Positions 6,548 to 24,182 of a stretch of DNA of 25,622 nucleotides are shown in pieces. Location: the IMG/VR virus record IMGVR_UViG_3300020578_000385, positions 1-25,622 of that record; one strand, 5' to 3'. The notes under the pieces were generated by a model, which was not told the DNA's origin, did not search any database, and saw nothing but the letters and a program-made list of their open reading frames with translations. The DNA is from a virus. The first letter of the stretch is position 1. Every line of letters begins with the position of its first letter. Made by a program: the position numbers and the translations under genes.

Positions 6548-8809
6548 TTACCAGCGGAAAATATAATTAGGTGATGATGGATTTGCTGAAAACACGTTTT
6601 TTATATGAGATACTCCTGGCGGAGGTTGTGGATTGTTTTTAGGTTTTGCTTTAGGTCTAGAAGCAACTACAGTTGTATTAGAAGCACTAGTTGCTCCACG
6701 AGTGTTACTGTTTGGGGTAGGAGTTCTAGTGCCTGGTTGAACAGATGGATTAGCTATTACTGGGGTTGTTCCTGGAGCACCAACTGTAGCTCGTCTAGCA
6801 TAATCAATTTTAGATAATGCTATAGAACCTTTTGTAACTTTACCACTTTGATTTCCACCTATCAAATCCACATATCCATCTTTAGGTGTACCAATAGCAA
6901 ACATGACATGAGATTTAGATCCTCCTCCATAATCACCAACAATTACATCGCCTGGTTGAATATTATTTTTATCTACAGGAGATCCCCAGTTTTCAAAACT
7001 ATTTGCCGCGGGTGATCCAGATCCTTGTATCCCATTTCTTTGTAGTTGGGAATTAACATAGTCGGCACACCAAGCTTGTTTTGTCGGATCACCTATTCCA
7101 GCACCACCAGTACTCATAATTTCATCCTTCATTTCAGCAGCATTTTTACCAACATCTGCTTCCAAATCAGCTATCAAACTTCCTGGCGTGCCACTTGGAG
7201 GATTGCCACCACCGCCTCCACCGCCGCCGCCTTGGCGTTTTCCTTTTCCTTTCTTTTTATCATCATCACCTTTTAGAAAATCTGCTATACCTTTAGAATC
7301 TAAAGTAGCGGCTTCTGCTGAACCACCACCAAGTAAAGAACCTATAATACCAGCAGGCAGTCCGAATACTCTAGCTAATGGACTAAACATTTGTGATAGA
7401 AATGGTCCTATAATTTTACCAACGCCACCAAGATTTTTGAAGACTTCTGTCATCGTAGATAATAATAAACCACCAGCAGCAGTAGTTGGTAATTGTAATG
7501 CTTTACCTAATGAATCACCAACAGTTTTTCCAGATGATGTTTTAGCATCAGTTGCTTTTGGTTTTTGCTCTTGAAATGCTTTCTTAACTGGATTGTTTCT
7601 ATTTAATGGTATTACTGCTTGCCCTGGTTGTAGAACTGTTTTGGTTGGATTATCTACAATCCCACCTCTAGCTAATTTCTGCTGTGGTTGTACAGAATTT
7701 TGCTGTGGTTTTTGAGATAGAGTTTTATTTTCTACAGGTTTTGATGTAGGGACAATATTATTTTTTGCCTCTGGAGTTTGTGATTGAGGTGTTAGTGTTG
7801 TACCCGAAGGAGCAATACCGCCTTCTGAAAGTTTAGGAAGCGATCTTAATCCTCTAGCGAAACCAACTCTTCCCCTTCTGTTTAATCTTCTAGCACTTCT
7901 TCCTACTCCTCTTCTAAAATTATTAAACTTCCTTCTAGCGTATCTTCTTCTAACCCCTCTTCTTCTCCTCCTACCCCTTTTGTCAACATCAAAATCAAAC
8001 ATTCTATCCATGAAAGATCTGTTGCCAGAATCTTCTTCGTCATCTTCTTCATCTTGAGCGTATGGATCACTATACTTAACACTACCTGATAGATCCTGTC
8101 CAGATTCTAATCTTGCTTCGATTTGTTTTAGATCATTACTTTCTTTTTGATCAACAAAGAAATCTAATTGTTGATTTTCAGTCTTGTTTTCTTCTTCTTG
8201 TAAGTCATTATTCTTATTAAAGAAATTTTTAATTGTTGTCAATCCAGATGTTATTTTAGTAAGAGACTTTGTATTTTTAATCTCTTCTTGAACAGCACCC
8301 TTTTCTTTGCTAGATAAAGCACCTATTTTATCAGCAATATTATCATAAGACTTTTGTATATTGTCAAACGCTACAGACAACCAAGACTTTAAAGATTTGT
8401 CTTCAACGTTTACAACGTTTTTATCATTACCTCCTGTATTTAAAGGTAACTCTAGTTGTTTAAATGGTTCTGGCTTTACAATATCTGAACCTAATAAAGC
8501 AGAAAATCTTTGTCGCTTTGATAAAGCAGGATCTTCTGATTCTGTAGGATCATTTGAAAATGTTCCTTTTGTTCTTCTTATTAAATCTCCGCCAAATTCA
8601 TGAGATAAAGCTTTACCAAAAAAGTATCCCTTATCATATTTTTGTATATCTTCTTCAGGAACACCTTCAGCACGTTGTTGTTCTGCCTTTTCGTTTGCTG
8701 CTTTTCTTTCTTCTGCCGACATTTGTGCAGCATCTTTTACTTTCTTAGCAAGGTATTCAGCAAGACTTCCTGTATCTGGTTTAGAATAACTTACGGATCC
8801 GTGTGCCAT
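6548..8809 (-). CDS. tape-measure-like virion protein with CHAP/NlpC-type peptidoglycan hydrolase domain
   Basis: 753 aa. The N-terminus (about 1-120) shares a block with the 959-aa neighbour (FGGDLI-RTKGTFS-DPTE). A second shared block, SGSVKYSDPY, lies near 240, and a basic patch GVRRRYARRKFNN near 290. Gly-rich segments (SEGGIAPSG, ARGGIVDNPTKT, PGQAVIPL) recall phage tape-measure proteins. A hydrophobic Gly-rich stretch spans about 435-500 and a poly-Gly run follows near 530. Residues about 555-680 form a Cys/His amidase-like domain with WCADYVN (Cys581) and SHVMFAIG (His634). The C-terminus is Pro/Asn/Thr-rich. A CTAAATA late motif lies upstream. It probably helps local cell-wall digestion during DNA injection. 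Confidence 0.65.
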   Translation of the reverse strand: MAHGSVSYSKPDTGSLAEYLAKKVKDAAQMSAEERKAANEKAEQQRAEGVPEEDIQKYDKGYFFGKALSHEFGGDLIRRTKGTFSNDPTESEDPALSKRQRFSALLGSDIVKPEPFKQLELPLNTGGNDKNVVNVEDKSLKSWLSVAFDNIQKSYDNIADKIGALSSKEKGAVQEEIKNTKSLTKITSGLTTIKNFFNKNNDLQEEENKTENQQLDFFVDQKESNDLKQIEARLESGQDLSGSVKYSDPYAQDEEDDEEDSGNRSFMDRMFDFDVDKRGRRRRRGVRRRYARRKFNNFRRGVGRSARRLNRRGRVGFARGLRSLPKLSEGGIAPSGTTLTPQSQTPEAKNNIVPTSKPVENKTLSQKPQQNSVQPQQKLARGGIVDNPTKTVLQPGQAVIPLNRNNPVKKAFQEQKPKATDAKTSSGKTVGDSLGKALQLPTTAAGGLLLSTMTEVFKNLGGVGKIIGPFLSQMFSPLARVFGLPAGIIGSLLGGGSAEAATLDSKGIADFLKGDDDKKKGKGKRQGGGGGGGGGNPPSGTPGSLIADLEADVGKNAAEMKDEIMSTGGAGIGDPTKQAWCADYVNSQLQRNGIQGSGSPAANSFENWGSPVDKNNIQPGDVIVGDYGGGSKSHVMFAIGTPKDGYVDLIGGNQSGKVTKGSIALSKIDYARRATVGAPGTTPVIANPSVQPGTRTPTPNSNTRGATSASNTTVVASRPKAKPKNNPQPPPGVSHIKNVFSANPSSPNYIFRW

Positions 8810-8838: not shown

Positions 8839-11718
8839 CTATCTCTGCCCAAGCACAGCAGAGTGAAGAGAGTTGATATCGTATGGATTGCGCAGCCGCA
8901 GTGCCCCGCCGCCGCCTACACCGAACGCTTCACTCAAAGAAGTATTTGCAGCGGTACTCCCAGATTGAGAAAGTAATACATTGAAATTAGATAATGGAGA
9001 TGCTGGTTGGCGTACTGGTGCTACTGGTCTAGTTCCTGGTTTAGTTCCTGATGGTACTGCCGCGGTGCTGCCACGTCGGTTCGTTTGAGTTCCTGGAACT
9101 ACTGGTGCTGCAGAACCAGGAGATCCAGAAGGGGCACCAGGAGTCGCTGTGGACGCTGAAGCAACGGCGGTGGCGTTTGGATTTGCCTGGTAAGCGGCAT
9201 TAGCGCCATTAATGGCAGCAATTAATTTATCATCAGGAACTTTTTGTAATCCAATCCATTCATTTCTGAAGTTAGTTGCATTTGCTCCAGTTTTTAATCT
9301 GTATTTAATCAAAGCAATACCAAGTTTATCTTGAGTTACCGCATCATATAAATCCGTTGGTTGTACTCCAGTATCACCATAGTTTCCATTCATTAATCCT
9401 TTAAGTGTGCTAGCAATAATTTGGTATCTACCAGTAGCATGTAGATCTCCTGATGCTTGTAAGCTCATTACCTCAGCAACAGTTCTCTGTGTCAATGGTT
9501 TTATTACACCACCAATAGCAACCTCGGCAGAATTACCAGAACCATGAGCAACTGTTCCGCCAGCACTACCACCTCTATTGAATGCTTCATATCCACCACT
9601 ACTAGTGCTTTCAACACCAGCAATAAGATCTAGCATATCTTTATAGGCACCAGCATCAGAAGCAGCAGATCCTCTAGTGCCAGATTGTCCTTCACTTCCC
9701 CCATCATCTTCATCTTCACCACGAAGAAATGATCCAATCTTCTTAATCAATCCAAGTATTCCACCTTCCTCTTGATTTGGTTCTTGAATATTGTTAAGGT
9801 TTTTCCCAACTTTAGTAGTAATATTGAATTCTGGTTTGCCATAAACTTTTGCTAAAGGTCCAATTATCTGCTGAACAAAAGGTTTTACAGCACCCGCAGC
9901 AGGACCAGCATTTTGTATTACTTTATCAGTTACCCCCAGTATGGTAGAAATAGAAGTTTTTACTGGGTCCGATCCCATTCCAACTAAAGAAGATAAATCC
10001 AAAGGTTGCCCTGGTGAAGTAACAAGTTCAGGACCAGCTTCGCCTACCATTGCTGGTACACCACCATTAGATAATTTAATCATACCACCTTCAGACATTT
10101 TCTTTTGCTTGCCACCAAAAATATCAAATATATCTTTTCCAAGTAATGCTAAATCAGTAACCCACGAAACAGCGGTGCCAGCAACAGGTATAGCATCAGC
10201 ACCTGCTCCGAAAGCAGCAATACCAGCACCAACTTTATCACCCCTGGCTGCTCGATCAGCAGCATCAGCAGCGCCAACAGCAGCGCCTACACCAGGAACA
10301 GCTTTTCCTCCAAAAGCACCAAATGCTTTACCCAATCTCATAATTTTAGGATTATCAGCAATAAACTTTCCAACTTTAGTTATTCCTGATTGCCCAGCAC
10401 GAAGTAATTTGCCACCCTGATCACCTAAAAATTTACTAACACTCTTTCCTTTATCAACAAAAAAGTTTTTAGCTCTATTACCTTGTTCAGCAATACCTTT
10501 TCCAATGTTTCTTGTAGCGTTATTAAATTTTCTTCTAGCTAATCTTCTTCTTACTCCTGGTCTTCTACTTCTACGGGGGTTTCGATCTGGTAAATCTATA
10601 TCAATGCCTCCACCACCACCTTCATCATCACACTCACAGTCATCACCATTGTCACCAGAAATAAAATCCATCGCCCTTTGAACTAATCCTTTACCTTCTT
10701 TTTGTTTAGAATATGGATCGGAATATTTGACACTACCCGATAGATCAGATCCTTTTTCCAAAGAGGCTTCACGAGCAGCATTTTCATTTTGTTCTGCTTG
10801 TTTTTTCTGTACGTTTAATTGTGTCTGCTTTATTTTATTTAAAGTTTTTCTTAATATATTATTTTCTTTAATAGATTCCTTTACAGTTGTAAATCTATCA
10901 GATATAATTTCCGAAATAGTATTCTCTTGTTTTGATACTGATATAGATTGATCTTTGGTTTCACTTAGATCAGATAATTTTTTATTTACTCGTTCAAAAC
11001 TCTTTTGTAATTTGCCAACATAATCTTTAACACATTGACCAATAGACCTGTCCACTACAGTAACGTACTTATTAGTGTCAAATAAAGATGGTTGTGTATA
11101 AGGTGTACTAACAGATGAAGCAGAAGCAACTTTAGGTTGATCTGTTGGTGGTTTAATATTTTTTAATGCAGCAGCAAATCTATCTCCTTTATTTGAAGAT
11201 GGATCCTGTTCTTCTGTTGGGTCGGATGAAAATGTTCCTTTCGTTCTATTAATTAAGTCACCACCAAATTCAAATCCTAATGCTTGCTTTAAGAAAAATC
11301 CTTTTGGTTTTGTTTCTTCACCTCTTTCCTTAGCATTTTTTCTTGCTGTTGCTGCCAAAGAAAATGATGATGATATTTTACGTCCTAAGAACTCGGCAAA
11401 ACTAGAATCTTTTTTCTCTATAGGTTTGTAACGATAAACCTTTATCTTTATTTTCTTTACTTTTACTTCTTTTACTTTCTTTGGTTTTTTTAGTTTAACA
11501 GGTGGAGGTGGTGCCTGAACATCCGCTATAAGTTTATCTAAATTTTTATCAAAAGCATTTGCCATCCTCTCAGCGAGATCATCACTGGGAGCATTTACAT
11601 CTATGGTAACTGGTTGCTTTTCATTATTACTTTGCACCTCAGAAATAGAGAGTACAACATTTCTTTCTTCCAGTTCTTCTCCTTTTTTATCTTCAGGTTT
11701 CGTTTCTTCTGGATTCAT
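8839..11718 (-). CDS. tape-measure-like virion protein with muramidase/transglycosylase domain
   Basis: 959 aa. The N-terminus is charged, with a run of alternating Lys-rich residues around 75-95. It then has the blocks shared with its 753-aa neighbour (FGGDLINRTKGTFS, SGSVKYSDPY, GVRRRLARRKFNN). Ala/Gly-rich hydrophobic helices span about 460-530. MIKLSNGGVPAMVGEAGPEL near 555 is the VGExGPEL signature common near tape-measure C-termini. Residues about 690-830 look like a lysozyme-fold domain: AGVES with candidate catalytic Glu703, then HATGRYQIIASTLKGLM. The tail is Ala/Pro/Thr-rich. It lies 2 nt after the frameshift extension of gp26, the normal place for a tape-measure gene. Confidence 0.65.
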   Translation of the reverse strand: MNPEETKPEDKKGEELEERNVVLSISEVQSNNEKQPVTIDVNAPSDDLAERMANAFDKNLDKLIADVQAPPPPVKLKKPKKVKEVKVKKIKIKVYRYKPIEKKDSSFAEFLGRKISSSFSLAATARKNAKERGEETKPKGFFLKQALGFEFGGDLINRTKGTFSSDPTEEQDPSSNKGDRFAAALKNIKPPTDQPKVASASSVSTPYTQPSLFDTNKYVTVVDRSIGQCVKDYVGKLQKSFERVNKKLSDLSETKDQSISVSKQENTISEIISDRFTTVKESIKENNILRKTLNKIKQTQLNVQKKQAEQNENAAREASLEKGSDLSGSVKYSDPYSKQKEGKGLVQRAMDFISGDNGDDCECDDEGGGGGIDIDLPDRNPRRSRRPGVRRRLARRKFNNATRNIGKGIAEQGNRAKNFFVDKGKSVSKFLGDQGGKLLRAGQSGITKVGKFIADNPKIMRLGKAFGAFGGKAVPGVGAAVGAADAADRAARGDKVGAGIAAFGAGADAIPVAGTAVSWVTDLALLGKDIFDIFGGKQKKMSEGGMIKLSNGGVPAMVGEAGPELVTSPGQPLDLSSLVGMGSDPVKTSISTILGVTDKVIQNAGPAAGAVKPFVQQIIGPLAKVYGKPEFNITTKVGKNLNNIQEPNQEEGGILGLIKKIGSFLRGEDEDDGGSEGQSGTRGSAASDAGAYKDMLDLIAGVESTSSGGYEAFNRGGSAGGTVAHGSGNSAEVAIGGVIKPLTQRTVAEVMSLQASGDLHATGRYQIIASTLKGLMNGNYGDTGVQPTDLYDAVTQDKLGIALIKYRLKTGANATNFRNEWIGLQKVPDDKLIAAINGANAAYQANPNATAVASASTATPGAPSGSPGSAAPVVPGTQTNRRGSTAAVPSGTKPGTRPVAPVRQPASPLSNFNVLLSQSGSTAANTSLSEAFGVGGGGALRLRNPYDINSLHSAVLGQR

Positions 11719-11720
11719 CT

Positions 11721-11903
11721 CTACTGAGCAGCTTTTTGTTGATCTTCTTTTTCTTTAATGTACTGATTTAATAAAGAGATGTATATAGTTCTTTCCCATG
11801 GCATCATATTTTCAATCTCTGTCAAGCTATATTTATGTTCCTCCATGAGAGTAAAGTTTGTTCTATAATAGTTCTCTAGATTATTGTAGAACAAACTTAT
11901 CCG
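11721..11903 (-). CDS. -1 frame extension of the gp26-like tail chaperone (60 codons, frameshift product)
   Basis: This is the -1 reading frame entered after the slippery site at 11903-11909. It is open from CGG (11901-11903) to TAG (11721-11723) and adds 60 residues, giving a predicted fusion of 297 aa. Its C-terminal part (MEEHKYSLTEIENMMPWERT and on) is helical and charged, and resembles the MxPWER-type segment I associate with the T part of GT tail chaperones. The only internal ATG (11844-11846, 41 aa) has no Shine-Dalgarno sequence, arguing against independent translation. It ends 2 nt before the 959-aa gene. Confidence 0.75.
   Translation of the reverse strand, partial: RISLFYNNLENYYRTNFTLMEEHKYSLTEIENMMPWERTIYISLLNQYIKEKEDQQKAAQ
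11854..11898 (-). promoter_or_regulatory. hairpin stimulating -1 frameshifting
   Basis: A perfect 12-bp inverted repeat (11854-11865 with 11887-11898; minus-strand arms AAGTTTGTTCTA and TAGAACAAACTT) encloses 21 nt. Four further pairs are possible inside after one mismatch. The stem begins 4 nt after the slippery heptamer, close to the usual spacing for frameshift-stimulating structures. The zero-frame stop codon sits at its base. Confidence 0.75.
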
Positions 11904-12613
11904 AAAAAAGATTGTAAACCCTCCAAGGTATACGTTGATTCCACACCTGTTGAAGGATTAGTTACAGAGAATTGATGACGTAACACAGGCATTGTATCAA
12001 AGAAATTTTGAATCTTTTCAAATTGCTGCTGTGTAAATGCTTCTATAAAAGAAACCAATTCTTTTCTTGTTGTAGTAGAAGAATCCCAAACTTCATCTCC
12101 CTGAAAAACTTGATCAATACAACCTGCTAGCATATCAAATACTTGATCAGTTGTATCTAAATCTTTCTCCAGCAATGTGATATTAATAAAATTATTCATG
12201 GCAGGATACTTCATTACAATACCAATTGTATCGTCAACCATAATTTTATTTGTATGTCCTTCTGGTTTAAAAACTTCAATATCATTTAAGTTAATAATAA
12301 CATCAACTACAGTTTGTTGATCATCTGAACATGTAACTTTCATTGATACTTCTTCACCAGCAGAAGCAGCTCTAATTTTTAAAAACAAATATTCTAAATC
12401 AAAACTAGGGAGGTCTTCTATCTTAATTCTAGCTTGAATACAACTTTTCAGAATATCTTTTACAGCATTTGTAATTTCTTTTTCATCTTCAGATTCCATT
12501 GCCATCAATAGAATTTTTTCTTCTCTGACTAGAAATGGTCTATATTTAATTTTTTTTCCTGTAGATGGCAACTCAAGTTCATAAGTTGGTACAGTGGGCT
12601 TTGGTAAAGGCAT
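11897..12613 (-). CDS. 26: gp26-like baseplate/tail assembly protein (zero-frame product of a frameshifting gene)
   Basis: 238 aa, close to T4 gp26 (208 aa). The family resemblance lies in the opening: LPSTGKKIKYRPFLVREEKILLMA, then KEITNAVKDILKSCIQ and DLEYLFLKIRA. In T4 the family acts in baseplate hub assembly. Here its position, after a tube-like gene and directly before a tape-measure-like gene, matches tail-assembly chaperones. The last codons TCT TTT TTC GGA TAA contain the slippery heptamer T TTT TTC, so a minority of ribosomes should make a longer fusion with the -1 extension. A GATAAATA late motif lies upstream. Confidence 0.75.
   Translation of the reverse strand: MPLPKPTVPTYELELPSTGKKIKYRPFLVREEKILLMAMESEDEKEITNAVKDILKSCIQARIKIEDLPSFDLEYLFLKIRAASAGEEVSMKVTCSDDQQTVVDVIINLNDIEVFKPEGHTNKIMVDDTIGIVMKYPAMNNFINITLLEKDLDTTDQVFDMLAGCIDQVFQGDEVWDSSTTTRKELVSFIEAFTQQQFEKIQNFFDTMPVLRHQFSVTNPSTGVESTYTLEGLQSFFG
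11903..11909 (-). promoter_or_regulatory. slippery heptamer T TTT TTC for programmed -1 frameshift
   Basis: In the zero frame of the gp26-like gene the codons are TCT TTT TTC GGA TAA, so the heptamer T TTT TTC fits the X XXY YYZ rule in phase. It lies 3 nt before the stop codon. P2 uses the similar T TTT TTG in its E/E' chaperone genes. Confidence 0.8.
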
Positions 12614-12635: not shown

Positions 12636-12643
12636 TATTTATC
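12636..12643 (-). promoter_or_regulatory. putative late promoter GATAAATA
   Basis: GATAAATA on the minus strand overlaps the stop codon of the tube-like gene and lies 22 nt upstream of the gp26-like start. It differs by one base from the T4 late consensus TATAAATA. Confidence 0.5.
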
Positions 12644-13424
12644 CAGCGTAAGCACGTATATTATTGTAGTTAATAAAATGTCTGGCGTAGTAAAAATTAG
12701 CAGAAACTTTTGTTACTTGAGAAGCACCATATGATAATGGAGTAGCGTCAATACTATAGGGAAAACAATCAATCATATTATAGCACATCGAAGCTCTTCC
12801 GTTGGGAGCATTTTTACTTTTCTCTGTTTTTGTTATTAAAATATTAGATAGATATGTGTTTGGGTAATTTAGTCTCACAGTTCTGGCGTAACTTCCTGGG
12901 GAATTATTACTTCCTGGTGTATTAGCATTGCCACCCCCAGCACCAGCACCACTCTTAAGATCATTTAAATTTTTAGGTGAACCAAAATAATTTCCAGAAA
13001 CTTTATTATCTTGTGTATCAAATTCCTGGAATATAAAACCGTACCATATTTCTAAAAATTTTAATGGTGTCATGTTAGCATCACACATCCACGACATTTG
13101 AAAGTCAGAATATAATTTTGTGTGGGGATAGTTTACTTGTCCTTCTCCTAATAATCTTCCTGTAATCTGCCCCGTTGCTGCTTGTATATTTGGTAGTTGT
13201 GCTTCATCACAAAACAATTTAACAACAGCACCAGTATCTGTCGGATTAGTAGAGTTTAATACCCCGCTACTAGTCTTTATTCCATAAGAATCCATTCTTG
13301 ATGCTAATGCTGATGGCAATCTAAACTCCACATCAAAATTATTGCTGTAGGACATGCCTCCGTTTTTAGCAATAGTTTCAATGAAAGAACTTATTGATTT
13401 GTTTGTAGTTTGTAAATTTGCCAC
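12639..13424 (-). CDS. tail-tube-fold baseplate protein (gp54/gp19-like)
   Basis: 261 aa from a GTG start. The core VVKLFCDEAQLP, then NYPHTKLYSDFQMSW and MTPLKFLEIWYGFIF, matches the pattern of the T4 tail-tube family (gp19 and the tube-initiator gp54). A Gly/Asn/Ser-rich insert sits at about residues 165-190 of this form. Such proteins nucleate or form the inner tail tube on the baseplate. An ATG at 13493 would extend it by 23 residues, but that start lies upstream of the late promoter motifs at 13445-13458 and inside divergent gp4. The GTG at 13422-13424 is therefore preferred, although its Shine-Dalgarno sequence is weak. Whether it is gp54 or a gp19 relative cannot be settled here. Confidence 0.65.
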   Translation of the reverse strand: MANLQTTNKSISSFIETIAKNGGMSYSNNFDVEFRLPSALASRMDSYGIKTSSGVLNSTNPTDTGAVVKLFCDEAQLPNIQAATGQITGRLLGEGQVNYPHTKLYSDFQMSWMCDANMTPLKFLEIWYGFIFQEFDTQDNKVSGNYFGSPKNLNDLKSGAGAGGGNANTPGSNNSPGSYARTVRLNYPNTYLSNILITKTEKSKNAPNGRASMCYNMIDCFPYSIDATPLSYGASQVTKVSANFYYARHFINYNNIRAYAG

Positions 13425-13425
13425 T

Positions 13426-13432
13426 CTAAATA
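13426..13432 (+). promoter_or_regulatory. putative late promoter CTAAATA for gp4-gp53 operon
   Basis: CTAAATA on the plus strand lies 23 nt upstream of the gp4 ATG and matches the motif upstream of the 753-aa gene. It is part of a 60-bp divergent control region shared with the tail operon. Confidence 0.45.
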
Positions 13433-13444
13433 TATGTGAGGGTT

Positions 13445-13458
13445 TATTTATATTTATG
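13445..13458 (-). promoter_or_regulatory. two overlapping late promoter motifs, TATAAATA and CATAAATA
   Basis: On the minus strand TATAAATA (13445-13452) and CATAAATA (13451-13458) overlap. They point at the tube-like gene with GTG start at 13424, predicting a leader of roughly 15 nt. The second copy overlaps the ATG of gp4 on the other strand. Confidence 0.65.
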
Positions 13459-13893
13459 GCATACTCTGGAACATATAAACCTACCAATCCCAAAAAGTAT
13501 AAAGGTGATCCAACTAGGATTATCTATCGTTCGATGTGGGAACGAAAGTTTATGGTATTTTGTGACACAAATTCCAACATCATTGAGTGGGGGAGTGAAG
13601 AAGTAATAGTGCCTTATCGTTGTCCAACTGATGGGAAATTCCATAGATATTATCCCGACTTTTACATTAAAGTAAAGAGCAAAGATAATACTCTTACAAA
13701 ATATATCATAGAGATTAAACCAAAAAGACAAGTCATTGGACCCAATGAAAAACCAAACAAAAAAACTGCTGCTTGGAAAAGAGAAGTCCTAACCTTTTTA
13801 AAGAATAAAGCTAAGTGGGAAGCGGCAAAGGACTTCTGTGAGGATCGGCAGATGAAATTTTTGATACTCACCGAAGACCACTTAGGAGTATAG
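13456..13893 (+). CDS. 4: gp4 head completion protein
   Basis: 145 aa, close to T4 gp4 (150 aa), which completes the head before tail joining. It shows a TnsA/restriction-like nuclease pattern: SMWERKFM (Glu29), HRYYPDFY (Asp68) and IIEIKPKR (Glu86, Lys88). I chose ATG 13456 (MAYSGTYKPT), not the ATG 34 codons upstream, because the shorter form matches the family length and begins after the CTAAATA motif and a GAGGG tract. It opens the plus-strand operon gp4, 235-aa gene, gp48, gp53, and is 2 nt from the next gene. Confidence 0.8.
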   Translation: MAYSGTYKPTNPKKYKGDPTRIIYRSMWERKFMVFCDTNSNIIEWGSEEVIVPYRCPTDGKFHRYYPDFYIKVKSKDNTLTKYIIEIKPKRQVIGPNEKPNKKTAAWKREVLTFLKNKAKWEAAKDFCEDRQMKFLILTEDHLGV

Positions 13894-23077: not shown

Positions 23078-23106
23078 AGTGTATCAGATTTTATCCTGAT
23101 TGTCAA
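23078..23106 (-). promoter_or_regulatory. sigma70-type promoter of glutaredoxin operon, overlapping psbA stop
   Basis: TTGACA (23101-23106) contains the psbA TGA stop. A 17-nt spacer and TACACT (23078-23083) follow. The expected start point is near 23071, inside the psbA terminator hairpin. Confidence 0.6.
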
Positions 23107-24182
23107 CCAATTGCTGGAGCAGTGAGAGCAACAGGAGTTGCATTGCTGGAAGCAAGATCTAGAGGGAAGTTATGAGCGTTCCTTTCGTGCATTACTTCCA
23201 TGCCAAGACCACCACGGTTCAGAATGTCTGCCCAGGTAGGGATGACTTTGCCTTCACTCGATACGATGGACTGGTTGAAGTTAAAACCATTCAGGTTGAA
23301 TGCCATGGTGCTAACACCAAGAGCAGTAAACCAGATGCCAACTACAGGCCAAGCAGCAAGGAAGAAGTGTAGTGAACGAGAGTTGTTGAACGAAGCATAC
23401 TGGAAGATCAAGCGACCAAAGTAACCGTGGGCTGCCACGATGTTGTAGGTCTCTTCTTCTTGACCGAACTTGTAACCATAGTTCTGACTTTCGTTCTCGG
23501 TAGTCTCACGAACCAGTGAAGACGTAACCAGACTTCCGTGCATGGCACTGAATAGAGAACCACCAAACACACCAGCAACTCCGAGCATATGGAAGGGGTG
23601 CATCAGGATGTTATGTTCTGCCTGGAATACAAGCATATAGTTGAATGTGCCAGAGATTCCCAAAGGCATAGCGTCACTGAAAGAACCTTGACCAAAAGGA
23701 TAAACAAGGAACACAGCAGAAGCAGCAGCCACGGGAGCAGAATAAGCAACACAAATCCAAGGGCGCATACCCAAACGATAAGAGAGTTCCCATTCACGAC
23801 CCATGTAAGCATAGATACCGATGAGGAAGTGGAAAACAACCAGTTGGAAAGGTCCTCCGTTATATAGCCATTCATCAAGAGAAGCAGCTTCCCAGATGGG
23901 ATAGAAGTGAAGTCCGATAGCATTGGAACTAGGGACAACAGCACCAGAAATAATGTTGTTTCCGTACATTAATGAACCAGCAACAGGTTCACGGATACCG
24001 TCGATATCAACGGGTGGGGCAGCAATAAAAGCAACGATGAAGCAAATAGTAGCAGCGAGTAGGGTAGGAATCATTAGGGTTCCAAACCAACCGACGTAAA
24101 GACGGTTATCGGTAGAAGTGATCCACTCACAGAACTGTTGCCAAGTGTTACTTTGTCGCTGTTGGGCGATAGTAGCAGTCAT
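23103..24182 (-). CDS. psbA: photosystem II D1 protein, high-light type
   Basis: 359 aa, intact, no intron. Functional residues are in place: Tyr161, Asp170, Glu189, His190, His198, His215, Ser264, His272, His332, Glu333, Asp342 and mature C-terminus Ala344. Residue 130 is Glu (YMGREWEL), the high-light D1:2 form. The C-terminal extension after Ala344 is 15 residues. D1 is the fast-turnover PSII reaction-centre subunit; phage copies sustain electron flow and energy supply during infection. The gene looks clearly richer in G+C than the tail genes, consistent with host origin. Both early-type and late-type promoter boxes lie upstream and a terminator follows. Confidence 0.98.

Follow-up and report, generated by a model that had tools for sequence, protein, structure and literature searches.

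Introduction

In phage lambda, many copies of gpG and a few of gpGT bind the tape measure protein, and the T part of gpGT binds the tail tube protein (PMC5009743). According to a 2016 review, this G/GT frameshift is conserved across the long-tailed phages "except T4" (PMC5009743). In T4 itself, gp26 and gp51 have been classed as hub assembly chaperones; gp51 is required for assembly and absent from the particle (PMC3004832). A conserved −1 frameshift is also described in the Vandenendeviridae and Andersonviridae (phage Adele), where the short chaperone gene has a T-rich motif at its end and the −1 frame is open in all genomes (PMC12846349).

Here we analyze a gp26-like gene in a viral DNA stretch of 25,622 nucleotides (IMG/VR record IMGVR_UViG_3300020578_000385, positions 1 to 25,622), which we call the window. 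Its heptamer is different from that of lambda gpG/gpGT, with which no sequence relationship was found. T4 carries its chaperones as two genes on opposite strands, whereas this phage has one gene and a predicted frameshift. The Adele-type motif is GTTTTT, in contrast to T TTT TTC in this phage, and the phage families are different. Taken as a whole, the sequence comparisons make it very probable that the product of the gp26-like gene is a tail assembly chaperone, made in two forms via a −1 slip of the ribosome.

The idea has a published precedent. Vladimirov, Gautam and Davidson (Virology 2022, PMID 34826709) identified tail assembly chaperone genes of T4-like phages, and the title of their paper points to a mechanism other than frameshifting for these phages. 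A 2025 paper cites the same work for poly-T frameshift signals in T4-like chaperone genes. The sequence-only reading of this locus, which treated a frameshift in gp26 as apparently undescribed, was mistaken on this point, given the 2022 identification and the poly-T signals credited to that work in the citing text. Going by that citation, the general claim of frameshifting in T4-like chaperones has very likely been published already; our literature search returned no report on it that was more specific. The present locus is a well-supported new member of the T4-like frameshift chaperones. As far as the accessible papers show, our additions are a clade lacking start codons, codon-level statistics, a compensatory pair in the hairpin, and degraded slip sites in Ackermannviridae-type loci.

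A gp26-like gene in the tail region of a cyanophage-like genome

The features discussed below are as follows, in the order in which they would be transcribed.

12639..13493, minus strand: tail tube protein, upstream neighbor of the gp26-like gene (PF23849 Phage_TTP_2, E=4.2e-49; phrog_45)
11897..12613, minus strand: gp26-like gene, zero-frame product of 238 aa (predicted short chaperone, TAC-N / gpG-like; PF12322, E=4.8e-74; phrog_150, E=1.4e-79; AlphaFold2 pLDDT 85)
11903..11909, minus strand: slippery heptamer T TTT TTC in the zero-frame register (in phase in 47/50 non-redundant relatives versus 10/143 control Phe-Phe pairs)
11854..11898, minus strand: putative stimulatory hairpin 4 nt past the heptamer, with a perfect 12-bp outer stem (fold z=-3.95; kept in the S-PM2-like clade)
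11721..11903, minus strand: −1 extension of 60 codons plus TAG, C-terminal part of the predicted 297-aa product (TAC-NC / gpGT-like; phrog_634, phrog_150 and gp51 homology; pN/pS 0.18)
8839..11718, minus strand: 959-aa tail gene in the tape-measure position, downstream of the gp26-like gene (phrog_5453, unknown function, E=9.8e-53)

The genome from which the window comes is cyanophage-like. By eye, a psbA-like gene (photosystem II D1) can be recognized at 23103-24182, consistent with a cyanophage. The tail tube gene lies directly upstream of the gp26-like gene and the 959-aa tail-region gene directly downstream. The latter is tape-measure-like by position only, as it has no Pfam match and no tape-measure match, and its PHROG matches are mostly of unknown function. 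The adjacent 753-aa tail-region protein (6548-8809) also matches PHROG 5453, and the two appear paralogous; the 753-aa protein shows a weak CHAP-domain match as well.

Membership of the gp26-like protein in PF12322, the T4 gp26/gp51 family, is clear, with a score of 249.2 bits against a curated Pfam cut-off of 24.5 and residues 9-237 aligning to positions 2-218 of the 219-position profile. No NCBIfam model covers this family, and the surrounding 4.7-kb region, used as a nucleotide query, found no match in the phage collection. The AlphaFold2 model is of good confidence. Comparison with PDB folds gave no significant match for this model or for T4-type gp51. In BFVD, the significant matches of the model are phage proteins, the named ones being mostly hub or baseplate proteins, and the best match is named "baseplate hub assembly chaperone."

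A phased heptamer and an open −1 frame

The sequence-only reading had described a zero frame ending TCT TTT TTC GGA TAA with a phased T TTT TTC, and this holds base by base, the TAA lying at 11899-11897 on the minus strand. The heptamer, in register, has the X XXY YYZ form of tandem-slippage −1 frameshift sites. Its account of the −1 frame is likewise borne out: after the slip, 60 codons are open from 11903 to 11724, and the TAG at 11723-11721 ends 2 nt before the next gene, whose ATG is at 11718. The product lengths it gave, 238 aa and 297 aa, were both reproduced as predictions from the sequence, with the junction in the predicted long product reading LQSFFR|ISLF.

The −1 extension is a conserved protein segment related to T4 gp51

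In AT-rich sequence, a short open frame is by itself unremarkable, and the −1 ORF could in principle be a chance open frame or a decayed gene with no product. The conservation data exclude this. The extension is conserved as protein in every relative found, and among related extensions pN/pS is 0.18, with 60% of changes falling at third positions of the −1 frame; it is under purifying selection. It is also homologous to the C-terminus of T4 gp51.

Several comparisons establish this homology. The 60-residue extension of the window matches PHROG 634, "baseplate hub assembly catalyst" (E=1.6e-26). On phrog_150, the gp26-like protein covers positions 5-232 and the extension 239-281 (E=2.9e-7), the two together tiling a profile that T4 gp51 spans from 13 to 280 in a single frame. 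The extension finds gp51 of Aeromonas phage 25 directly (E=2e-4), and profile comparison with T4-type gp51 (hhalign) gives E=7.5e-7. T4 gp26 (208 aa) and gp51 (249 aa) both belong to PF12322. Because of this tiling, the direct and profile matches and the shared PF12322 domain, the cyanophage −1 tail can be equated, at the level of sequence homology, with the gp51 C-terminus of T4, which T4 encodes as a fusion and this phage by a frameshift. T4 encodes the short and long chaperone forms as two genes, 26 (short) and 51 (long). The sequence-only reading had proposed that the gp26 family is the T4-type equivalent of the G/GT pair, and a short T4 gp26 beside a long gp51 that carries the extension supports this. 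The G/GT hallmark of a short form and a C-terminally extended form is thus present here as predicted products of 238 and 297 aa, with gp51 as a natural fused homologue. The gp51 alignment leaves out L110 because its reading frame is broken. In that public viral contig, the T4-type gp51 gene (L110:3001-3746) is interrupted mid-gene, by a sequencing error or in reality.

The heptamer and the −1 ORF are conserved together

Relatives comprised 80 IMG/VR loci, fetched with gp26 as the query, plus cultured phages. Wherever the first 87 sequences include the end of the gene, it carries T TTT TTY in phase, and the −1 frame stays open for 155-200 nt beyond the stop. For counting, we used a non-redundant set of 50 loci whose gp26 sequences are less than 90% identical to each other, and a stricter 80%-identity set of 32 loci. 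The −1 ORF is kept in all 50 non-redundant relatives and the in-phase heptamer in 47, and their conservation reaches down to about 27% gp26 identity. Both are common to Synechococcus and Prochlorococcus phages, Cr30, phiN3, and Stenotrophomonas, Delftia, Vibrio and Aeromonas phages. In one clade, the zero-frame stop has shifted 21 nt downstream, yet the heptamer and the −1 frame are retained. The sequence-only reading would have been contradicted by relatives that lack a slippery site, or whose downstream ORF has a ribosome-binding site of its own and lies in an incompatible frame; the comparison of relatives came out in favor of frameshifting.

The codon-level statistics point the same way. 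Of the 32 loci in the 80%-identity set, 29 carry T TTT TT(C/T/A) in phase: 28 have a Phe-Phe slip site, in every case a phased T TTT TTY, and the 29th has T TTT TTA. At other Phe-Phe codon pairs in the same loci, T TTT TTY occurs in phase in 10/143, and TTC TTT is preferred. The codon preceding the heptamer is NNT in 29/29, although the residue it encodes varies (Asp, Ser, Asn, Ala, and Arg in L094).

The T run itself raises the question of transcriptional slippage, in which RNA polymerase would add or drop a U so that some mRNAs encode the fusion. In its favor, 6 or 7 Ts are present in every heptamer-bearing relative. A run of six Ts is, from general knowledge, short for efficient slippage by bacterial polymerases. 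Furthermore, such slippage needs no codon phase, yet 29/29 runs in the 80%-identity set are phased, which is what slippage of tandem tRNAs requires. We therefore regard transcriptional slippage as highly improbable, and ribosomal frameshifting as the better account of the phased run.

The 3 exceptions among the 50 loci are of the Ackermannviridae type and keep the −1 ORF without a tandem heptamer. In these (L090, L091 and L093, namely Salmonella phage pertopsoe and Vibrio phages SD25 and D528), the slip region reads GAG ATT TTC, CAC GTT TTT or TCA CTT TTC. A different variant is found in a related Rhizobium phage, RL38J1 (L101:2435-2754), whose gp26-like gene carries T TTT TTG; the junction there falls within an annotated repeat close to the record's end. 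The P2 E/E' frameshift uses a slip site of the T TTT TTG type, which is exactly the site in RL38J1.

Restart at the gp26 stop as an alternative

A second way to express the −1 ORF would be termination and reinitiation, with ribosomes restarting at a start codon that overlaps or lies near the gp26 stop and making a separate small protein, as the "gp51" annotation assumes. Many relatives do have a start codon overlapping or shortly past the stop. An ATG overlaps the gp26 stop in the −1 frame in L003, L005, L006, L088, L091, L093 and L094, and in 35 of the 47 non-redundant heptamer loci an ATG occurs no later than extension residue 20. Since TAATG and TGATG overlaps also enter the −1 frame, the frame alone does not decide between frameshifting and restart.

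Other observations do discriminate. In 10 of the 47 heptamer loci, there is no ATG, GTG or TTG between the last −1 stop and extension residue 20, which makes separate initiation implausible in those loci, and they nevertheless retain the residues directly past the slip (RISLAHNSLEAYF...). Where starts exist, a Shine-Dalgarno-like match almost never accompanies them. This is also the case in the window, for which the sequence-only reading had noted a single internal ATG lacking a Shine-Dalgarno sequence: the ATG, at extension residue 20, is not the sole candidate, as a TTG is also present 5 nt past the stop, and neither of the two has a Shine-Dalgarno-like match. Annotated "gp51" starts vary among related phages, or the ORF is not annotated at all; a joined gene annotation was found in none of the phage records examined. 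In addition, T4-type gp51 is the fused form, and the heptamer is not needed for restart, so that its conservation would go unexplained. We consider reinitiation improbable, if slightly less so than transcriptional slippage. A programmed −1 frameshift, as originally proposed for this gene, is supported by the conserved phased heptamer, the conserved −1 ORF and the loci lacking a start.

A putative stimulatory hairpin

The perfect 12-bp stem noted 4 nt past the heptamer was confirmed, with 11898-11887 (AAGTTTGTTCTA) pairing with 11865-11854 (TAGAACAAACTT) at 12/12 positions. When the 86-nt stretch was folded, 1 of 200 shuffles folded as well as the native sequence (z=-3.95). We then compared 45 distinct sequences of the clade, drawn from a pattern scan of viral contigs and from the earlier loci. 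The core pairs, formed by GTTYTATAATA and its partner, are retained in 84-100% of these sequences, and one stem pair is C-G in 35, U-A in 8, U-G in 2 and C-A in none. Pairing between the arms exceeds that in 2000/2000 re-assortments of arms between sequences. As the scan pattern prescribed a portion of one arm, both arms are coding and the sequences are related, these data support the structure without proving a role for it. A stimulatory structure is usual for such frameshift sites, though not obligatory, and in this clade the predicted 12-bp stem with its one compensatory pair could fill that place. In distant clades, this hairpin is absent, and other stems or none are predicted. A reading of the hairpin as a terminator was rejected, the terminator scan having found it not terminator-like, and Rfam gave only chance-level matches below the gathering score. 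A downstream hairpin at ribosomal spacing would be unexpected under transcriptional slippage.

A model for the two forms and their counterparts in other phages

In the frameshift model, most ribosomes would stop at the TAA and release the short form. A minority, stalled by the downstream hairpin, would slip by −1 on T TTT TTC as both Phe tRNAs pair anew; having passed the stop, these ribosomes would translate 60 further residues to give the long form. If the parallel with lambda gpG/gpGT holds, the tape-measure protein would be coated by the short form in many copies and by the long form in few. Tail tube subunits would be recruited by the C-terminus of the long form, and neither form would stay in the virion. 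That slippage occurs, how efficient it is, and what the two forms bind are points that we infer.

T4-superfamily phages, and cyanophages above all, do carry the frameshift signal, though the 2016 review lists T4 as an exception. On this model, the gp26 and gp51 of T4 are the two frameshift products turned into two genes, and what cyanophage records enter as "gp51 baseplate hub assembly catalyst" is a frameshift tail and not a gene. More tentatively, and with the odds in our view against it, the chaperone family may meet its need for a fixed ratio of short to long forms in several interchangeable ways. Cyanophages and most relatives would use tandem −1 frameshifting; T4, and perhaps separately Vibrio phage phiKT1024, a gene split or duplication; and Ackermannviridae-type phages, with their decayed slip site and retained −1 ORF, a third mechanism such as slippage of a single tRNA or coupling of stop and start. 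Vibrio phage phiKT1024 (L100:1251-2593) has a tandem pair of genes, one short and one with a C-terminus that by eye resembles the extension, and here the frameshift gene may have been split a second time, independently. In the family tree, T4 gp26 and gp51 are joined with moderate support (90/86), and the phiKT1024 proteins sit on long branches.
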